A DNA stretch of 61,943 bases from Polyangiaceae bacterium (GTDB lineage Bacteria > Myxococcota_A > Polyangia > Polyangiales > Polyangiaceae), in NCBI GenBank assembly GCA_020849655.1, contig JADLFU010000094.1:1-61943 (forward strand), in the 5' to 3' direction. Of this stretch, positions 8,284-17,437 are shown in pieces; the stretch's first letter is position 1, and each line of letters starts with the position of its first letter. The notes below the pieces were generated by a model. It saw only the letters and a list, made by a program, of their open reading frames with translations. It was not told the origin of the DNA and did no database searches. Both the position numbers and the translations under genes were made by a program.

Positions 8284-9728
<1,445 letters not shown>

Positions 9729-9844
9729 GAAGCGCCGAGCCTACCCGACTTCGCGCCCCGCCGGCAGGCGCCGGGCACGGCGAAACCGTGGCGTGACTTC
9801 GCGCGTAGGGCGACTACCTTCCACCGCTCACCCCCGAGATCCTC

Positions 9845-10243
9845 ATGAACCGCCTGACCACCCCCGCCCTGCTCGCCACGCTCGCCGCCCTCGGCACCCC
9901 CGCGCTCGTCGGCTGCGGCACGCCAGACCCGAAGAGCCCCGTCGACGCGAAGGAGGTGCCCGCCGGCGCCGAGAAGAAGGCCGACGGCTCGTGCAGCGCG
10001 GGCAGCTGCAGCGCCGGCAGCTGCAGCGGCCACGCGGAGGCCGCGAAGCCCGCGGAGGCCGCGAAGCCCGCGGAGGCCGCGAAGCCCGCGGAGGCCGCGA
10101 AGCCCACGGAGACCGCGAAGCCGCTCGAGGCCGCGACGCCCGCGGAGGCGCCGAAGGTCGACCCGAAGAAGGGCCCGCCGAAGAAGGGCGGGATGGCCGG
10201 CGCCGGCGGTTGCGGCAAGGGCACCTGCTCGGCGAAGAAGTGA
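9845..10243 (+). CDS. Cys-repeat lipoprotein, candidate MNIO-modified RiPP precursor
   Basis: 132 residues. The signal peptide ends in lipobox LVGC (Cys24), predicting a lipid-anchored protein. The mature part has Cys50, 55 and 60 in GSCSAGSCSAGSCSGH (CX4CX4C), then four AEAAKP units and a degenerate fifth, a Lys/Pro-rich stretch (VDPKKGPPKKGG), and at the very end Cys123 and Cys128 in GGCGKGTCSAKK (CX4C). It directly precedes, and by GTGA overlap is coupled to, a DUF692 oxidase and its DUF2063 partner. Known MNIO substrates (bufferins, HvfA-like and methanobactin precursors) are small, Cys-bearing and often exported; this one shares the placement and periodic Cys but looks like a lipoprotein. 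Modification and copper binding are inferences. Confidence 0.85.
   Translation: MNRLTTPALLATLAALGTPALVGCGTPDPKSPVDAKEVPAGAEKKADGSCSAGSCSAGSCSGHAEAAKPAEAAKPAEAAKPAEAAKPTETAKPLEAATPAEAPKVDPKKGPPKKGGMAGAGGCGKGTCSAKK
10034..10105 (+). repeat. 18-bp coding tandem repeat (AEAAKP)
   Basis: Four perfect copies of gcggaggccgcgaagccc encode AEAAKP in the Cys-repeat lipoprotein, followed by a diverged fifth copy at 10106-10123. It forms a flexible charged spacer between the two Cys clusters. Confidence 0.9.
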
Positions 10244-11094
10244 GCGTTCGCGGGGGCGCGCCGCCCGGCGTCGGGCTCGGCCTCCGCTGGGAGTTCCTCG
10301 AGGAGCTGCTCGAGCTGCCCGCGTCGACGCTGCCGTTCGTCGAGATCTCTCCCGAGAATTACCTGCGCCGCGGCGGCTACTACCCCGCGGCGCTCGAGCG
10401 CGTGCGCGAGCGCTGGCCCGTCGTGACGCACGGCCTGACGATGTCGGTAGGCGGCACCGATCCGTTCGACGACGCGTACTTCCGCGCGCTCCGGGCGCAG
10501 CTCGAGCGGCTCGGCGCGACGTTCCACAGCGATCACCTCTGCTGGTCCGCGACGCCGGAGAATTCGCTGCACGATCTGTTGCCGCTGCCGTTCACCGACG
10601 AGGCGGTGCGGCACGTCGGGCGGCGCGTGCGCGAGGCGTCCGACAGGCTCGGGCTGCCCGTCGCGCTCGAGAACGTCTCGTACTACGCGCCGCGCGGGCC
10701 GCCGGCGATGAGCGAGCTCGAGTTCCTGCTCGCTGTGCTCGACGAGTCGGACGCACCGCTCTTGCTCGATGTAAACCATCTCCACGTCAACTCGCTCAAC
10801 CACGGGTTCGATCCGCTGGCCTTCCTCGCGCGGGTGCCGCTCGAGCGCGTCGTCGAGGTGCACGTCGCGGGGCACCACGTCTGGGAGGACGGCCTCGTCG
10901 TCGACACGCACGGGGCGGCGGCGCCGGACCCCGTGCACGCGCTGCTCGCGTGGGTCGTCGAGCGCGCGGGGCCGCTGCCCGTGGTGCTCGAGCGCGACCA
11001 GGAGATCCCGCCGCTCCCCGCCCTGCTCGACGAGGTGCGCGCGCTCGGCGAGACGTACGATCGCGCGCTCGCGCGCTGGAGGGCGCGTGGCTGA
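10240..11094 (+). CDS. DUF692 multinuclear non-heme iron oxidase (MNIO), MbnB/BufB-like
   Basis: 284 residues from a GTG that overlaps the precursor stop (GTGA). It is a DUF692 TIM-barrel protein: VGLGLRWEF at the start, FVEISPENYL, VVTHGLTMSVGG, FHSDHLCWS, VALENVSYY, LLLDVNHLHVNSLNHGFDP, VVEVHVAGHH, VVDTHGAAAPDPV and VVLERDQEIPP. Candidate iron ligands include His64, His96, Asp98, His99, Glu144, Asn145, Asp177, His180, His208, Asp222, His224 and Glu251. Characterised members of this family oxidise cysteine residues of peptide substrates, forming groups such as oxazolone/thioamide or thiooxazole that bind copper. The likely substrate is the upstream Cys-repeat lipoprotein, acted on in the cytoplasm before export. 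Family call is firm; product chemistry is inferred. Confidence 0.93.
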   Translation: MSVRGGAPPGVGLGLRWEFLEELLELPASTLPFVEISPENYLRRGGYYPAALERVRERWPVVTHGLTMSVGGTDPFDDAYFRALRAQLERLGATFHSDHLCWSATPENSLHDLLPLPFTDEAVRHVGRRVREASDRLGLPVALENVSYYAPRGPPAMSELEFLLAVLDESDAPLLLDVNHLHVNSLNHGFDPLAFLARVPLERVVEVHVAGHHVWEDGLVVDTHGAAAPDPVHALLAWVVERAGPLPVVLERDQEIPPLPALLDEVRALGETYDRALARWRARG

Positions 11095-11806
11095 TCTACG
11101 CGAAGCGCAGGCGCGGCTCCGCGAGGCCATCCTCGGCCCGCCGGGCGAGCTCGAGGGGCAGCGGCTCGGCGTCTACCGGCGGCTCGTCCGCGCGACGCTG
11201 CGGGGGGTGGTGCGTGACGTCCTGCCGCGCACGGCCGCGGCGCTGGGCGAGCGGCTCGAGGTCGAGCTCGACCGGTTCTGCCGGGAGCGCGGCCCGAAGA
11301 CCCACTACCTCCGCGACGTCGCGCTCGAGCTCGTCGAGCACCTCGCGCCGTCGTGGCGCGTCGACGCGTCGTTGCCGCCGCACCTCGCCGATCTCGCGCG
11401 GCTGGAGGCGCTCGAGCTGCGCGTCGCGGTCGCAGGTGACGAGCGCCCCGACGCGCGGGCGGAGCTGCGGCTCGACGCGCCCGCGGTGTTCCAGGAGGCC
11501 CTCGGCCAGGCGTCGTTCGAGCACGCGGTGCACGAGGGCGCGGACCCGCCGGACGCGCGCCCGGTGTGGCTCCTCGTCTACCGCGACGACGCGCACGCGC
11601 TCCGCGCGCTCGAGCTGACCCGGGCCGCGGCCGAGATCCTCGAGCGGCTGCGCGCAGGCACGACGCTCGGCGCGGCGATCGAGCAGGGCGCCCGCGCCGC
11701 CGGCGTGCCGGTCGACGACGCGCTCCTCGCCGGCGCCGCGCGGCTGCTCGCCGATCTCGCCGATCGCGGCGCGCTGCTCGGCGCCCCCGCCCCAGATTGC
11801 CAGTAG
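11087..11806 (+). CDS. DUF2063 partner protein of the MNIO (BufC/HvfC-like)
   Basis: 239 residues from a GTG 8 bp inside the end of the MNIO gene, so coupled. The N-terminal ~90 residues match the DUF2063 pattern (LREAQARLREAILG, RLGVYRRLVRATLRGVVRDVLPRTAAALGE, YLRDVALELVEHLAPSW). The second half is a DNA-binding-like domain that in MNIO partners usually recognises the precursor (PVWLLVYRDDAHALRALELTRAAAEILERLRAGTTLGAAIEQG). The protein lacks a signal peptide. By family precedent it binds the precursor and presents it to the oxidase. Only 35 bp separate it from pilB, which is otherwise unrelated. Confidence 0.88.
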   Translation: MADLREAQARLREAILGPPGELEGQRLGVYRRLVRATLRGVVRDVLPRTAAALGERLEVELDRFCRERGPKTHYLRDVALELVEHLAPSWRVDASLPPHLADLARLEALELRVAVAGDERPDARAELRLDAPAVFQEALGQASFEHAVHEGADPPDARPVWLLVYRDDAHALRALELTRAAAEILERLRAGTTLGAAIEQGARAAGVPVDDALLAGAARLLADLADRGALLGAPAPDCQ

Positions 11807-11841
11807 CTCCCGCCGGAGCGATCGCGGTACGGTGCGGCGAC

Positions 11842-13548
11842 ATGAGCCAGGGCAACCGACTCGGCGAGCTGCTCGTCCGCGAGAAACTGATCAGCCTCCA
11901 GCAGCTCCGCCAGGCGCAGGAGGAGCAGAAGCGCTCGGGCAAGAACCTCGGCTACGCCCTCTCGAAGCTCGGGTACGTCGCCGACAGCGAGATCACGAAT
12001 TTTCTCTCGCAGCAGTACCGCGTCCCGGCGATCAACCTCGACGAGTACGAGCTCGACCCGGAGATCGTGCGGCTCGTCCCGAAGGAGACCTGCGAGAAGC
12101 ACAAGGTCATCGCGGTGCAGCGCGCCGGCCAGGCCATCGTCCTCGCGATGGCCGATCCGACGAACCTGCCGGCGATGGACGACATCAAGTTCCTCACGAA
12201 ATACAACGTCGATCCGTGCGTCGCCTCGGAGACGGCCATCCTCGCGGCCATCGATCGCCACTACAACGCCGGCCCCTCCTACGAGGACGTGATGGCCGGC
12301 TTCGAGGAGAGCGAGGTCGAGTTCTCCGCCGAGGACGACGAGGTCAACATCGGTGATCTCGAGCGCGCGAGCGAGGACGCCCCGGTCGTCAAGCTCGTCA
12401 ACATGATCCTGTTGAACGCCATCAAGCGCGGCGCGAGCGACATCCACATCGAGCCGTACGAGAAGAAGTTCCGCGTGCGCTACCGCATCGACGGCGTGCT
12501 CAGCGAGGAGATGTCGCCCCCGCTGAAGCTGAAGAACGCCATCAGCTCGCGCATCAAGATCATGAGCTCGCTCGACATCGCCGAGCGGCGGCTCCCGCAG
12601 GACGGCCGCATCAAGCTGAAGCTCGGCAAGGGCCGCGACATGGACTACCGCGTCAGCGTCCTGCCTACGTTGTGGGGCGAGAAGATCGTCATGCGCCTGC
12701 TCGACAAGTCGAACCTGCAGCTCGACATGTCGAAGCTCGGCTTCGATCCGAAGCCCCTCGAGGACTTCCTGTGGGCCGTGCACCAGCCGTGGGGCATGAC
12801 GCTGGTGACGGGGCCGACGGGCTCGGGCAAGACGACGACGCTGTACTCGGCGCTGAGCGAGCTCAACCAGCCCGACATCAACATCAGCACCGCCGAGGAT
12901 CCGGTCGAGTACAACCTGCACGGCATCAACCAGGTGCAGCAGCACGACGAGATCGGTCTGAACTTCGCGGCGTCGCTGCGGTCGTTCCTCCGGCAAGACC
13001 CGGACGTGCTGATGGTCGGCGAGATCCGGGACTTCGAGACCGCCGAGATCGCCATCAAGGCCGCGCTCACGGGCCACATGGTGCTCTCGACGCTGCACAC
13101 CAACGACGCGCCCGCGACCGTGAGCCGCCTGCTCAACATGGGCGTCGAGCCGTTCCTCATCACCGCGAGCCTGAACCTCATCCTCGCGCAGCGCCTCGCG
13201 CGGAAGATCTGCGGCGACTGCAAGGCGGAGATCCCGAAGGACGAGAAGGTGCTCCTCGAGATCGGCATGACCGCGGAGCAGATCGCCGGCGCGCGCATGT
13301 ACAAGGGCATGGGCGGCGGCTGCAAGACGTGCAACGGCTCCGGGTACAAGGGGCGCGTCGCGCTCTATGAGGTCATGCGGATGAACGACACCCTCCGCGA
13401 GATGATCCTGCAGGGCGCGAGCACCGCCGAGCTGAAGGTCGGCGCCATCAAGACGGGCATGAGCAGCCTGCGCATGAGCGGCAACGCGAAGGTGCTGGCC
13501 GGCGTCACGACGCCCGCCGAGGTGCTCCGCGTGACGATGTCCGACTAG
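11842..13548 (+). CDS. pilB: Type IV pilus assembly ATPase PilB
   Basis: 568 residues, the usual PilB size. Order: an MshEN-type N-terminal domain (1-~140, RLGELLVREKLISLQQLRQAQEEQ), a linker, then the secretion-ATPase core. The core has Walker A GPTGSGKT (324-331), Asp box, Walker B with VLMVGEIRD (389-396) and His box MVLSTLHTN (413-421). Near the C-terminus is a zinc tetracysteine (CGDC ... CKTC) typical of PilB/GspE extension ATPases and absent from PilT. It would power pilus extension for twitching motility at the cytoplasmic face. No other pil genes are in the window. A short GC stem (13556-13573) follows the stop but has no clear T-run. Confidence 0.95.
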   Translation: MSQGNRLGELLVREKLISLQQLRQAQEEQKRSGKNLGYALSKLGYVADSEITNFLSQQYRVPAINLDEYELDPEIVRLVPKETCEKHKVIAVQRAGQAIVLAMADPTNLPAMDDIKFLTKYNVDPCVASETAILAAIDRHYNAGPSYEDVMAGFEESEVEFSAEDDEVNIGDLERASEDAPVVKLVNMILLNAIKRGASDIHIEPYEKKFRVRYRIDGVLSEEMSPPLKLKNAISSRIKIMSSLDIAERRLPQDGRIKLKLGKGRDMDYRVSVLPTLWGEKIVMRLLDKSNLQLDMSKLGFDPKPLEDFLWAVHQPWGMTLVTGPTGSGKTTTLYSALSELNQPDINISTAEDPVEYNLHGINQVQQHDEIGLNFAASLRSFLRQDPDVLMVGEIRDFETAEIAIKAALTGHMVLSTLHTNDAPATVSRLLNMGVEPFLITASLNLILAQRLARKICGDCKAEIPKDEKVLLEIGMTAEQIAGARMYKGMGGGCKTCNGSGYKGRVALYEVMRMNDTLREMILQGASTAELKVGAIKTGMSSLRMSGNAKVLAGVTTPAEVLRVTMSD

Positions 13549-14219: not shown

Positions 14220-15890
14220 CTACGGTGCGTGGAGGCGCAGCTCCGCGCCGAGCGACAGCCCCGCGGGTGACAGCTCGAGCTCGAGGCCGCGGAGGCTCGG
14301 GCGCAGTCCCAGCCCCGCGGTGGCCAACCCGAGCGCCTGCTCCAGGTCGAGCTCGCCCACCATGCGCCGACCGATGACCCTCTGCCGGACGGCCGGCAAC
14401 AGATCGGAGAGGCACGGGGTGAGCTCCCAGTCCGAGCCCCGCCGGGCCTCGCAGTCGACGCCGATCAGCCGTGGGGTCAGCGTCGCCTTCGCGCGCGCCG
14501 GGCCGCTCGCGCCGAGCTCGAGCGCGAGGCGCGCGTGCCCGACCACCTCGCGCGCGCCCCAGTCGCCGAGCTTCACCGAGAGCGCGGAGACCGTCGCGCC
14601 GTCGCGCGTGAAGCTGGAGAGATAGGGCGCCAGCCGCGGATCGAGCCCGGTGACAGTGAAGGCGAGATCTCGCGCCTCTCGCGGGAGCGCGTCGAGCACG
14701 ACGCTCGAGCGCCCGAGCGCGCCGAGCGCCCCGCTCTGCCAGGCGACGTACAGCAGCTGGTTCACCGCGGCGGGGGTCAGGCTGACAGTGATCCGAGGCC
14801 CAGACCCGCCCGGCGCGCGCGTCGCCGGCGCGGGGGAGGCGACGGAGGCGACGACGGGGTAGCCCTCGACGACGGGGTCGCGGAGCGGCGGCGCGAGGTG
14901 GGCGGCGAGGCAGAAGGGGAGGGTGACGCCGCCGGCGTCGACCGTCGGCGCGCTGGGCACGCGCACCGCGAACCTGTCGCGGCGTCCCGGCACGGGAGAC
15001 GCGAAGTCGGTGACGGAGAGCGCGGCGTCGAGCGCCTCGAGGGCCCCGAGGATCGCGCGCTCTCCTTCACTTTGCAGGGTGCTCCCGACGATCGACGCGC
15101 ACGCGTCCGGGCGGCCCAGGAGGCTCGGGAGCCTCCCGAGCAAACATAGGGGGCCGTGGTCGGCGTGCACACGCTCGACGATGGCGGCCTCGAGGCCAGG
15201 GCTCGCGCGCACGGAGGGCGCGGTGAGCGATCGCACGCGGAGGCGCCCGCCGTCGGCGTCGAGCGAGAGCGCGGCGTCGAACGACAGCGTCCACCCGCGG
15301 CCGAATCCCAGCTCGACGTGCGTGTCGAGTCGCCCGGGTGACGCCTTCGTGCGCAGCGTCGCGCTCGCCACCTTCGGGAAGCGGAACGACGTCCACTCGA
15401 CAAAGTTCTCACGCTGCATGCGCGCGAGCTTCTGGTTCGCCGCGTCGATCCCCCGCTGGCCGCGCCGCGTGAGCTCCCGCTCGAGCCACGGGGAGCTCGA
15501 CGTGTCGAGCACCTCGGGTCGGAACGAGAGCGTGTAGCCGCAGTTGCTGTCGCCGGCAGGCTCGAGCGGGCCGAGCGCGGGGAGCCACACCTCTCGCTCC
15601 CAGCGGTGGGCGTACGACGCGCGCCAGCCGAGGAGCTCGACGCCCGCCTCCACGTCGCGCGTCTCCTCCACGCGCCAGCGCAGCTCCCCTGGCAACAGCA
15701 GCGGGGCGGGCGACGCGTGCCCGACGCTCTGGCGGAGGTACGGCGTGGGCGAGCGCACCATCACCCGCAAGTCCTCGCCGAGGACGGCGCGGTCGACCGC
15801 GGGCGCGAGCGCGACGCCGCCCATGGCGAGCGCGAGCCCCGCCGCGGCGAGCCCGGCCCCCAGCAGGGCGTAGCCGCGCGACAGCGTCAC
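14220..15890 (-). CDS. Large exported protein, possibly TULIP-like, coupled to an MlaFE-type transporter
   Basis: 556 residues from GTG 15890, which overlaps the transporter stop (GTGA). One N-terminal hydrophobic segment (YALLGAGLAAAGLALAMGGVALAPA) acts as a signal anchor; the rest is predicted outside the cytoplasm. It appears to have two similar halves: a first beta-rich half (about 150-330) and a second starting with ITVSLTPAAVNQLLYVAWQSGALG. That stretch resembles the 'S...NQ.LY..W..G.L' signature of BPI-type TULIP lipid-binding domains, and is followed by long alternating beta strands. The TULIP reading is by eye and not proven. Coupling to an ABC transporter of the lipid-moving Mla type suggests it receives or delivers lipid in the periplasm; it would take the place of an MCE protein, none of which is encoded nearby. 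Confidence 0.7.
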   Translation of the reverse strand: MTLSRGYALLGAGLAAAGLALAMGGVALAPAVDRAVLGEDLRVMVRSPTPYLRQSVGHASPAPLLLPGELRWRVEETRDVEAGVELLGWRASYAHRWEREVWLPALGPLEPAGDSNCGYTLSFRPEVLDTSSSPWLERELTRRGQRGIDAANQKLARMQRENFVEWTSFRFPKVASATLRTKASPGRLDTHVELGFGRGWTLSFDAALSLDADGGRLRVRSLTAPSVRASPGLEAAIVERVHADHGPLCLLGRLPSLLGRPDACASIVGSTLQSEGERAILGALEALDAALSVTDFASPVPGRRDRFAVRVPSAPTVDAGGVTLPFCLAAHLAPPLRDPVVEGYPVVASVASPAPATRAPGGSGPRITVSLTPAAVNQLLYVAWQSGALGALGRSSVVLDALPREARDLAFTVTGLDPRLAPYLSSFTRDGATVSALSVKLGDWGAREVVGHARLALELGASGPARAKATLTPRLIGVDCEARRGSDWELTPCLSDLLPAVRQRVIGRRMVGELDLEQALGLATAGLGLRPSLRGLELELSPAGLSLGAELRLHAP

Positions 15891-17437
15891 TCGATCACGC
15901 CCCGCTGCACGAGGGTGGACAGCAGTTCCATCGCGACGACGAACAGCGTGCAGCGCATCACCGCGGAGGTCATCGCGGAGGTGACGTCGTCCGACGAGCG
16001 CTTCGGCTCCACCGCGCGGGCGACGGTGATCGACGGCAGCGCGACGGCGTACAGCGCGATCAAGCAGCTCATGCGGATGACCGGGACGAGCTGCCCCGGC
16101 GCGGGATCGACGAAGTTGGACAGCAGCCGCAGCAGCGCGTGCGGGACGTCGTACGCCCGGAACAGCGCCCAGCCTCCCACCACCATCGACGCGATGAACA
16201 CCGCCGCCGCCCCCAGGTACGACGCGCACAGCGCGAGCCACGCGGGGGACCACAGGTAGCGCTCCGGCGGGACGCCGAGGCCCTCGAGCGCGAGCACCTG
16301 GCCGTTCAGCGTCTGCCCGCCGAGCCAGGCGTTCACCGAGCTGCCGCTGGTCGCCGAGAAGACGATCGCGGAGATCGGCGGCGCGAGCGACAGGATGTAC
16401 GAGCCGCCGACCATGCCGAGGATGGCGCCGGGCGCGAGCGCCGCCGACAGGCTCGCGATCACGAACGGCACCGTGAAACCCAACAATCCACCCACCGTGG
16501 CGAAGAACGCGAGCGGCCGGAGGAGCGCCGCCCCGAGCAGCTTCGCGCCCACGCGCGCGGAGGGGAAGAAGAGGCGCGGGCGGAGGGCCCCGACGAGGCT
16601 CGCGCCGAGCACCACGAGGGGCCGCGCGAGGCCGAGCTCCGCCCGCTGGCGACGAAACGCGGGCGGCGCGGCGGACGCCCCCGCGAGCAGCGCCTCGACC
16701 CGCGCTGTCAGCCGCCCCAGCCGCTGGTGTCGCTCGTCTGGCGGCGTGAGCTCGGCGGGCCCCGGCCAGTCCGCGAACACTGGCACCAGGCGCTTCGCCG
16801 CGGTGTCGAGGAAGAGGATCTGGTCGCTCGCGCCAGCCGCCAGCGTCAGATCGTGCGTGATGAGCAGGATGCCCGCGCCGAGCGATCTCGCCTGGCTCGT
16901 CAGCAGCGCGGCGAGGCGCCGGACGCCGAGCGGATCGAGCCCGACCGACGGCTCGTCGAGCACCACGAGGCGCCGCCCGGCGGCGAGCGTCCGCGCCACC
17001 GCGACGCGCTGGGCCTGCCCGCCGCTCAGCGCCGAGACGGGGCGCCCCGACGTCGCGAGCGCGGGATCGAGCTCGACCGCGCGCAGCCAGGCCTCGGGCG
17101 CGTGCGCCGCGCCCGCCGCGGCCTCGGCGAGGCGGATGTTCGCGCCGACGTCGAGGTGATCGAACAGCGCGCCGCGCTGGGGGACGAACGCAGACTCGAC
17201 CCGCACGTGGTGGGCGCGCGCGACGACGCCATAGCCCGCGTGGCGCAGCGACGAAGGCCCAAGGAGCGCGCGCAGCAGCGTGGTCTTCCCGGCGCCCGAT
17301 GGGCCGAGCAGCGTCACCACCTGACCCGGCAGGATGCGCAGCGAGGCGCCAAGGACCAGCGGCTCTCCCCCCGGGAAGGCCACCGTCAGCCCGTCGATCT
17401 CCAGGAGGGCGCCGCGCGGCGAGGTCGCTCGTGACAA
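15887..17437 (-). CDS. Fused MlaF-type ATPase / MlaE-type permease
   Basis: 516 residues in one open frame. Residues 1-~235 are an ABC ATPase: Walker A GPSGAGKT (45-52), Q-loop Gln87, signature LSGGQ (137-141), Walker B LVVLDEP (157-163) and H-loop His195. Residues ~265-516 are an MlaE-type permease: amphipathic start, FFATVGGLLGFTVPFVIASLS, AILGMVGGSYILSLAPPISAIVFSATSGSSVNAWLGG, LCASYLGAAAVFIASMVVGGWALF, and a last span CTLFVVAMELLSTLV. In known MlaFEDB systems these are two genes, with MCE protein MlaD alongside; here they are one gene and no MCE gene is near. The start is a TTG, the first possible start after an in-frame stop at 17483-17485. It probably moves phospholipids across or between membranes. 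Confidence 0.85.
   Translation of the reverse strand: MSRATSPRGALLEIDGLTVAFPGGEPLVLGASLRILPGQVVTLLGPSGAGKTTLLRALLGPSSLRHAGYGVVARAHHVRVESAFVPQRGALFDHLDVGANIRLAEAAAGAAHAPEAWLRAVELDPALATSGRPVSALSGGQAQRVAVARTLAAGRRLVVLDEPSVGLDPLGVRRLAALLTSQARSLGAGILLITHDLTLAAGASDQILFLDTAAKRLVPVFADWPGPAELTPPDERHQRLGRLTARVEALLAGASAAPPAFRRQRAELGLARPLVVLGASLVGALRPRLFFPSARVGAKLLGAALLRPLAFFATVGGLLGFTVPFVIASLSAALAPGAILGMVGGSYILSLAPPISAIVFSATSGSSVNAWLGGQTLNGQVLALEGLGVPPERYLWSPAWLALCASYLGAAAVFIASMVVGGWALFRAYDVPHALLRLLSNFVDPAPGQLVPVIRMSCLIALYAVALPSITVARAVEPKRSSDDVTSAMTSAVMRCTLFVVAMELLSTLVQRGVIE

Follow-up and report, generated by a model that had tools for sequence, protein, structure and literature searches.

A myxobacterial MNIO operon predicted to produce a lipid-anchored protein of the captophorin class

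Peptides made by MNIO-PME1 systems have been unified as a class under the name captophorins (PMC13097082). The systems characterised so far install 5-thiooxazole, as in the product of FonBC, and copper binding has been reported for the resulting thiooxazole peptides (PMC13097082). HvfABC, FonABC and NgoABC, which make oxazolin, fontiphorin and gonophorin, share an A-B-C gene order, an MNIO with a DUF2063/RRE partner, and a precursor with an N-terminal Sec signal; HvfBC is most effective on the full-length form that still carries its signal peptide (PMC13097082, PMC13419390). Lipoprotein signals have also been described among MNIO precursors. About 16% of Buf2 bufferins carry them, according to a survey that also defined a CxxxxC precursor family and hundreds more small Cys-containing ORFs before MNIO genes (PMC12452194). 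A second study reported a CxxxxC lipoprotein cluster (“Cluster X”) as well as NedABC of Neisseria dentiae, whose lipidated oxazolin was made in E. coli and analysed by MS, showing tri-acylation and a shift of −12 Da (PMC12636315).

We analysed a 61,943-nucleotide stretch of DNA from a Polyangiaceae bacterium, referred to as the window. Its positions 9845–11806 hold three overlapping genes on the + strand, here called A, B and C, as seen from the ORF list and the sequence:

9845..10243, + strand: precursor A, a 132-residue prolipoprotein and putative MNIO substrate (ORF with lipobox; 19-member alignment)
9845..9916, + strand: signal peptide and lipobox LVGC of A, residues 1–24, predicted lipidation at Cys24, Gly at +2 (sequence; lipoboxes of relatives)
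9986..10030, + strand: first Cys cluster of A, GSCSAGSCSAGSCSG, with C50, C55 and C60 spaced CX4CX4C (sequence; 15-bp tandem repeat)
10033..10149, + strand: AEAAKP-type linker of A, 6.5 copies of an 18-bp repeat (tandem-repeat analysis; sequence not conserved)
10205..10243, + strand: C-terminal core of A, GGCGKGTCSAKK, with C123 and C128 spaced CX4C (most conserved stretch of the mature protein)
10240..11094, + strand: MNIO oxidase B (DUF692, PF05114), 284 residues, GTG start (Pfam; model nearest 3BWW)
11087..11806, + strand: partner C (DUF2063 plus an RRE-like C-terminal domain, PME type 1), 239 residues, GTG start (PF09836, PF22106)
9729..9844, no strand: intergenic region, with a divergent Ser/Thr kinase gene on one side and the operon on the other (promoter and Rfam searches)

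A and B overlap by 4 bp (GTGA), and B and C by 8 bp. The coupling of an MNIO and a DUF2063 gene to a small Cys-repeat protein, noted in an earlier sequence-only reading of this DNA, is thus borne out, and the Pfam families agree with it. B is an MNIO (PF05114, 291.5 bits against a cut-off of 25, E 6.9e-87), and C passes the cut-offs for both PF09836 (DUF2063, 39.7 bits) and PF22106 (NGO1945_C, 48.4 bits). The best NCBIfam model for B is HvfB, at 286.1 against a cut-off of 360 and hence below equivalog level; BufB scores lower and also misses its cut-off. The best model for C is HvfC, at 97.8 against 142, which again falls short of an equivalog. In an alignment with 3BWW, none of the metal ligands of B is lost, and the ERD motif keeps its Asp. 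The catalytic Asp of B is Asp253, and Trp17 and Gln254 occupy substrate-specificity positions, such that B has Arg-Trp and Gln where FonB has Arg-Arg (positions 15–16) and Phe (position 250). The AlphaFold model of B (pLDDT 88) lies nearest to 3BWW, followed by TglH and MbnB. That of C (pLDDT 94) matches best the fold of 3DEE (E 4.2e-07), the gonococcal partner protein now called NgoC, and then TglI and MbnC; a phmmer search of C against PDB sequences gave no real relative, and it was fold comparison that supplied these.

Precursor A gave no Pfam or NCBIfam match above cut-off, DUF2282 included. Pattern search and inspection place its LVGC lipobox after a hydrophobic stretch, and besides Cys24 it has five Cys residues, all in CX4C spacing. 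The lipobox, both Cys clusters and the AEAAKP spacer are therefore present as the sequence-only reading had listed them. In an alignment of 19 homologous precursors, Cys24, C123, G124 and C128 never vary, and a segment with the consensus PVxAxEVPAA recurs behind the lipobox. The spacer, on the other hand, is local low complexity: relatives have a variable Ala/Pro/Lys-rich linker at this place, and they also differ in how many Cys repeats lie upstream. Since the Cys positions are invariant among these 19 precursors and the linker is not, we rejected the idea that the protein is a chance or low-complexity artefact. Near the C-terminus, the motif C[GS]xGxC is found in 38 of 44 lipidated precursors.

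With an MNIO, a PME1 partner and a Cys-rich precursor adjacent to one another, the operon has the gene content of a captophorin locus. It resembles HvfABC, FonABC and NgoABC in gene order, partner type and Sec signal, and its CX4C spacing is that of the EGKCGEGKCG repeats of HvfA and FonA; HvfB is the best-scoring model for B, and NgoC supplies the fold of C. It differs from them in having a lipobox where their precursors have a signal peptidase I site, in having Ser, Thr or Gly rather than Lys before Cys, often with Ser after it, and in having Trp17 and Gln254 in B at the positions of Arg16 and Phe250. HvfA membership was rejected on the grounds that A has no EGKCG motif, the HvfB and HvfC cut-offs are missed and the specificity residues differ. 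The bufferins (Buf1 with DUF2282, Buf2 with 6–12 Cys) likewise combine an MNIO and a DUF2063 partner with an exported Cys-containing precursor, but by the Buf1 and BufB criteria A, which has no DUF2282, is not one of them, and B scores less well with BufB than with HvfB. NedABC provides another MNIO-modified precursor with a lipoprotein signal; this precursor has EGKCG repeats, and the Neisseria origin of NedABC indicates that its lipidation is probably an independent gain. Judged by their published descriptions, the CxxxxC family (signal peptide, conserved CxxxxC, MNIO and DUF2063 neighbours) and Cluster X (lipoprotein signal, conserved CxxxxC) also come close, A having both CX4C and a lipobox. 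However, 54% of the published CxxxxC clusters include Lactamase_B_2 (PMC12452194), for which we found no gene in the flanking ORFs tested. In light of this shared spacing and the published lipidated bufferins and oxazolins (PMC12452194, PMC12636315), the earlier view that A is unlike HvfA-type precursors is not supported. Nor is the proposal of a new RiPP family, given that lipidated MNIO precursors, among them a lipidated oxazolin analysed by MS, have been published (PMC12636315). The window locus is a myxobacterial, lipid-anchored branch of a known peptide class (captophorins/oxazolins) and not a categorically new family.

Relatives of B are present in 48 of 59 related genomes, and the best matches mostly have a lipobox protein upstream that ends in or near C-G-x-G-[ST]-C. 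Relatives repeat the gene order A-B-C, with B and C again overlapping or nearly so, and a partner was detected on the same strand in 46 of 51 lipobox loci. Homologous three-gene loci occur throughout Polyangiales, as well as in Nannocystis, Sorangium, Polyangium, Myxococcus and Archangium. A profile search of the 59 genomes for the precursor tested the proposed tie between the lipoprotein and DUF692, and this tie stands: most strong matches adjoin an MNIO gene, the exceptions being two clear ones (L065 and L067) and one partial match. The precursor-like genes at L065:2883-3305 and L067:2620-2901 (− strand) carry the C-terminal CX4C motif with no MNIO beside them, and might be substrates modified in trans, or remnants. 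Such isolated genes could be cited, though not as direct evidence, for an alternative in which the lipoprotein is an unmodified metal binder and the MNIO pair modifies something else. We regard this as highly improbable: the coupling of precursor and MNIO holds across an order, A matches proven substrates in position, export signal and CX4C motif, and the genome with L065 has a complete locus besides this second copy. The lipoprotein is instead very probably the substrate, as its genetic tie to the MNIO/DUF2063 pair has been kept across an order. Among the remaining cases, L066 and L078 look like a single locus over two contigs, with the precursor near one contig end and the MNIO at the start of the next. 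L068 is a partial match in which the pattern used finds no CX4C precursor. L084 (G032:C89) has an MNIO match of only 73 residues adjoining a short precursor match and may have decayed or undergone a frameshift.

A scan of public genomes yielded 80 loci. Lipobox precursors were found at 45 loci of the myxobacterial branch and at none of the 45 other loci sampled, where lipoboxes were called by pattern and by eye, with L009 and L029 set by hand as lipoproteins and L112 as a non-lipoprotein. A lipobox marks the Myxococcota precursors identified (Polyangium, Sorangium, Nannocystis, Archangium, Myxococcus and metagenome bins), and an ordinary signal peptide those identified in Pseudomonadota, Bacteroidota, Acidobacteriota, Verrucomicrobiota and Melainabacteria. 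The precursor of L088, a record titled Proteobacteria, is identical to that of L008, from a genome in the window's own family; L090 and L095 carry no phylum label. In a tree of 105 MNIOs built by a quick method, the lipidated label changes three times among the labelled rows. One large group (support 93) takes in most of the lipidated rows along with a non-lipidated branch of Acidobacteriota, and the Myxococcaceae rows stand apart. The members of that branch (L103, L107, L108 and L109, from Geothrix and Holophagaceae) carry GSCGKGSCG in precursors whose signal peptide is of the ordinary kind, and their MNIOs lie inside the lipidated Myxococcota group, possibly through gene transfer with loss of the lipobox. 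Across the phylum, the precursor profile matched in 16 of 282 genomes drawn, a count that reflects the profile's make-up: most of the sequences behind it come from the window's own family, and the shorter precursors found in other families escape it.

The residues around Cys differ between the two sets of precursors. Ser precedes Cys in 60% of cases in the 45 lipidated precursors, followed by Gly (18%), Thr (13%) and Lys (3%), whereas Lys accounts for 75% in the 45 others. The residue after Cys is Gly in 72% of cases in the lipidated set versus 97% in the others, with Ser rising to 18% in the lipidated set; CX4C is the commonest Cys spacing in both (47% and 45%). FonB uses Asp249 as its catalytic base, and the residues it tolerates around Cys are influenced by Arg16 and Phe250 (PMC13097082). 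The Asp249 position is invariant in both sets, and the MNIO ligands are kept at all 45 loci with lipidated precursors. At the Arg16 position, Arg or Lys is found in 45/45 of the others; the lipidated set has Arg in only 6/45 and mostly Trp (22) or another non-basic residue. Phe occupies the 250 position in 36/45 of the others and in 0/45 of the lipidated set, where Gln, Asn or His replaces it. Phe250 is also absent from the Acidobacteriota rows, which are non-lipidated and have no Lys before Cys, and from L158, indicating that its change tracks the motif rather than lipidation. A test on independent pairs had three usable pairs, too few to reach significance, so the link between loss of Lys and loss of Phe250 is descriptive and confounded by ancestry.

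These substitutions, together with the varied chemistry of the MNIO family (PMC12636315), would suit an enzyme that acts on the lipoprotein to install something other than 5-thiooxazole, such as an oxazolone-thioamide or a product using both Cys of CX4C, with another metal or function. This is unlikely, as every characterised MNIO-PME1 pair makes 5-thiooxazole, the metal ligands and catalytic Asp are unchanged, and FonB variants at Arg16 and Phe250 kept making the 5-thiooxazole product (PMC13097082). In FonBC, an enzyme of EGKCG substrates, two-site variants tolerated only Gly or Ala after Cys (PMC13097082). Ser follows four of the five candidate Cys of A, and Lys precedes none; measured against the FonBC limits, the Ser residues imply that not every Cys of A need be modified, or that B differs.

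Conserved gene order, the MNIO ligands and Asp, the fold matches of B and C, and the invariant Cys favour a captophorin reading. Counted against it, and against copper, were the HvfB, BufB and HvfC scores below cut-off, the lack of DoxX and the lack of an adjoining copper gene. On balance, we consider it likely that the operon encodes a captophorin-type RiPP protein with a lipid anchor, which would carry 5-thiooxazole, most likely bind and buffer copper and probably reside in the outer membrane. In the mechanism we propose, partner C would bind the signal-peptide end of unprocessed A in the cytoplasm and present its Cys to B. The signal peptide and lipobox segment is probably also the enzyme's recognition segment, by analogy with HvfA (PMC13419390), and modification probably precedes Sec export, as HvfBC prefers the full-length precursor (PMC13419390). 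The iron oxidase B would then turn the Cys of the x-G-[ST/G]-C-[G/S] repeats (C50, C55, C60, C123 and C128) into 5-thiooxazoles, with an expected shift of about −4 Da per converted Cys. Modified A would be exported by Sec, lipidated on Cys24 and cleaved by signal peptidase II. Inner-membrane lipoproteins of M. xanthus tend to carry Lys at +2 (PMC3222651); by this rule, lipidation of Cys24 followed by Gly at +2 suggests that A is probably placed in the outer membrane. Lys is found at +2 in 6/44 homologues, and location may therefore differ among members; the precursors of L093, L094 and L086, from Nannocystis and relatives, show this inner-membrane mark. The flexible Ala/Pro/Lys linker may keep the thiooxazole clusters off the membrane, where the anchored protein would most likely bind and buffer copper.

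The surroundings of the operon bear on this last step. A divergent Ser/Thr kinase gene lies upstream and a T2SSE-family ATPase with an MshEN domain downstream; no copper genes were seen among the flanking ORFs adjoining the operon. No DoxX match was found anywhere in the host genome, in a search whose control worked, unlike many described clusters, in which DoxX is common. Both observations would suit a modified, anchored lipoprotein with a job other than copper, be it in redox or thiol stress, with a different metal, or in some myxobacterial role such as cell-cell exchange. Most non-bufferin MNIO products are functionally unexplored (PMC12452194), and exchange of outer-membrane lipoproteins among myxobacteria has been described (PMC3325183). 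Nevertheless, the thiooxazole products examined so far bind copper, and we see no sign of a different metal or of exchange between cells; such a role is improbable, and copper is the preferred assignment. The promoter proposed for 9729–9844 was not recovered: no sigma-70-like site lies in 9600–12000, though none is expected in shuffled sequence either. The intergenic region has no Rfam match, and the reading as an RNA element was dropped; as our alignment of the upstream region covered just the two nearest relatives, we propose no motif there.

Elsewhere in the window, a single ORF at 15887–17437 (− strand) joins an ABC ATPase domain to an MlaE permease domain and looks like a fusion of MlaF with MlaE. 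The host genome has three more MNIO genes, L001 (G000:C93:28616-29398), L003 (G000:C183:28922-29701) and L004 (G000:C88:20601-21383). A pattern search found no Cys-rich exported precursor just upstream of any of them, and a DUF2063 gene lies close to the copies on C93 and C183.

What appears to be undescribed is the consistent lipidation of the myxobacterial branch, the replacement of Lys before Cys by Ser, Thr or Gly, and the altered motif-reading positions of the enzyme; neither the lipidated branch nor the enzyme changes were described in the main text of the openly available papers searched. Tentatively, these features may define a myxobacteria-wide, lipid-anchored captophorin subclass with [Ser/Thr/Gly]-Cys cores and a rebuilt MNIO pocket, acting as a DoxX-free outer-membrane metal buffer that is perhaps shared between cells. 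The data support the subclass; that the buffer would be shared between cells along with other outer-membrane lipoproteins is speculation. With this finding, lipid anchoring of MNIO products, so far seen in scattered cases, becomes a stable trait of an entire branch of the phylum, and naturally occurring enzyme variants become available at positions with an influence on substrate choice. It thus offers a useful test case for how captophorin MNIOs read the residues flanking Cys, and for whether membrane-tethered thiooxazole proteins buffer copper.
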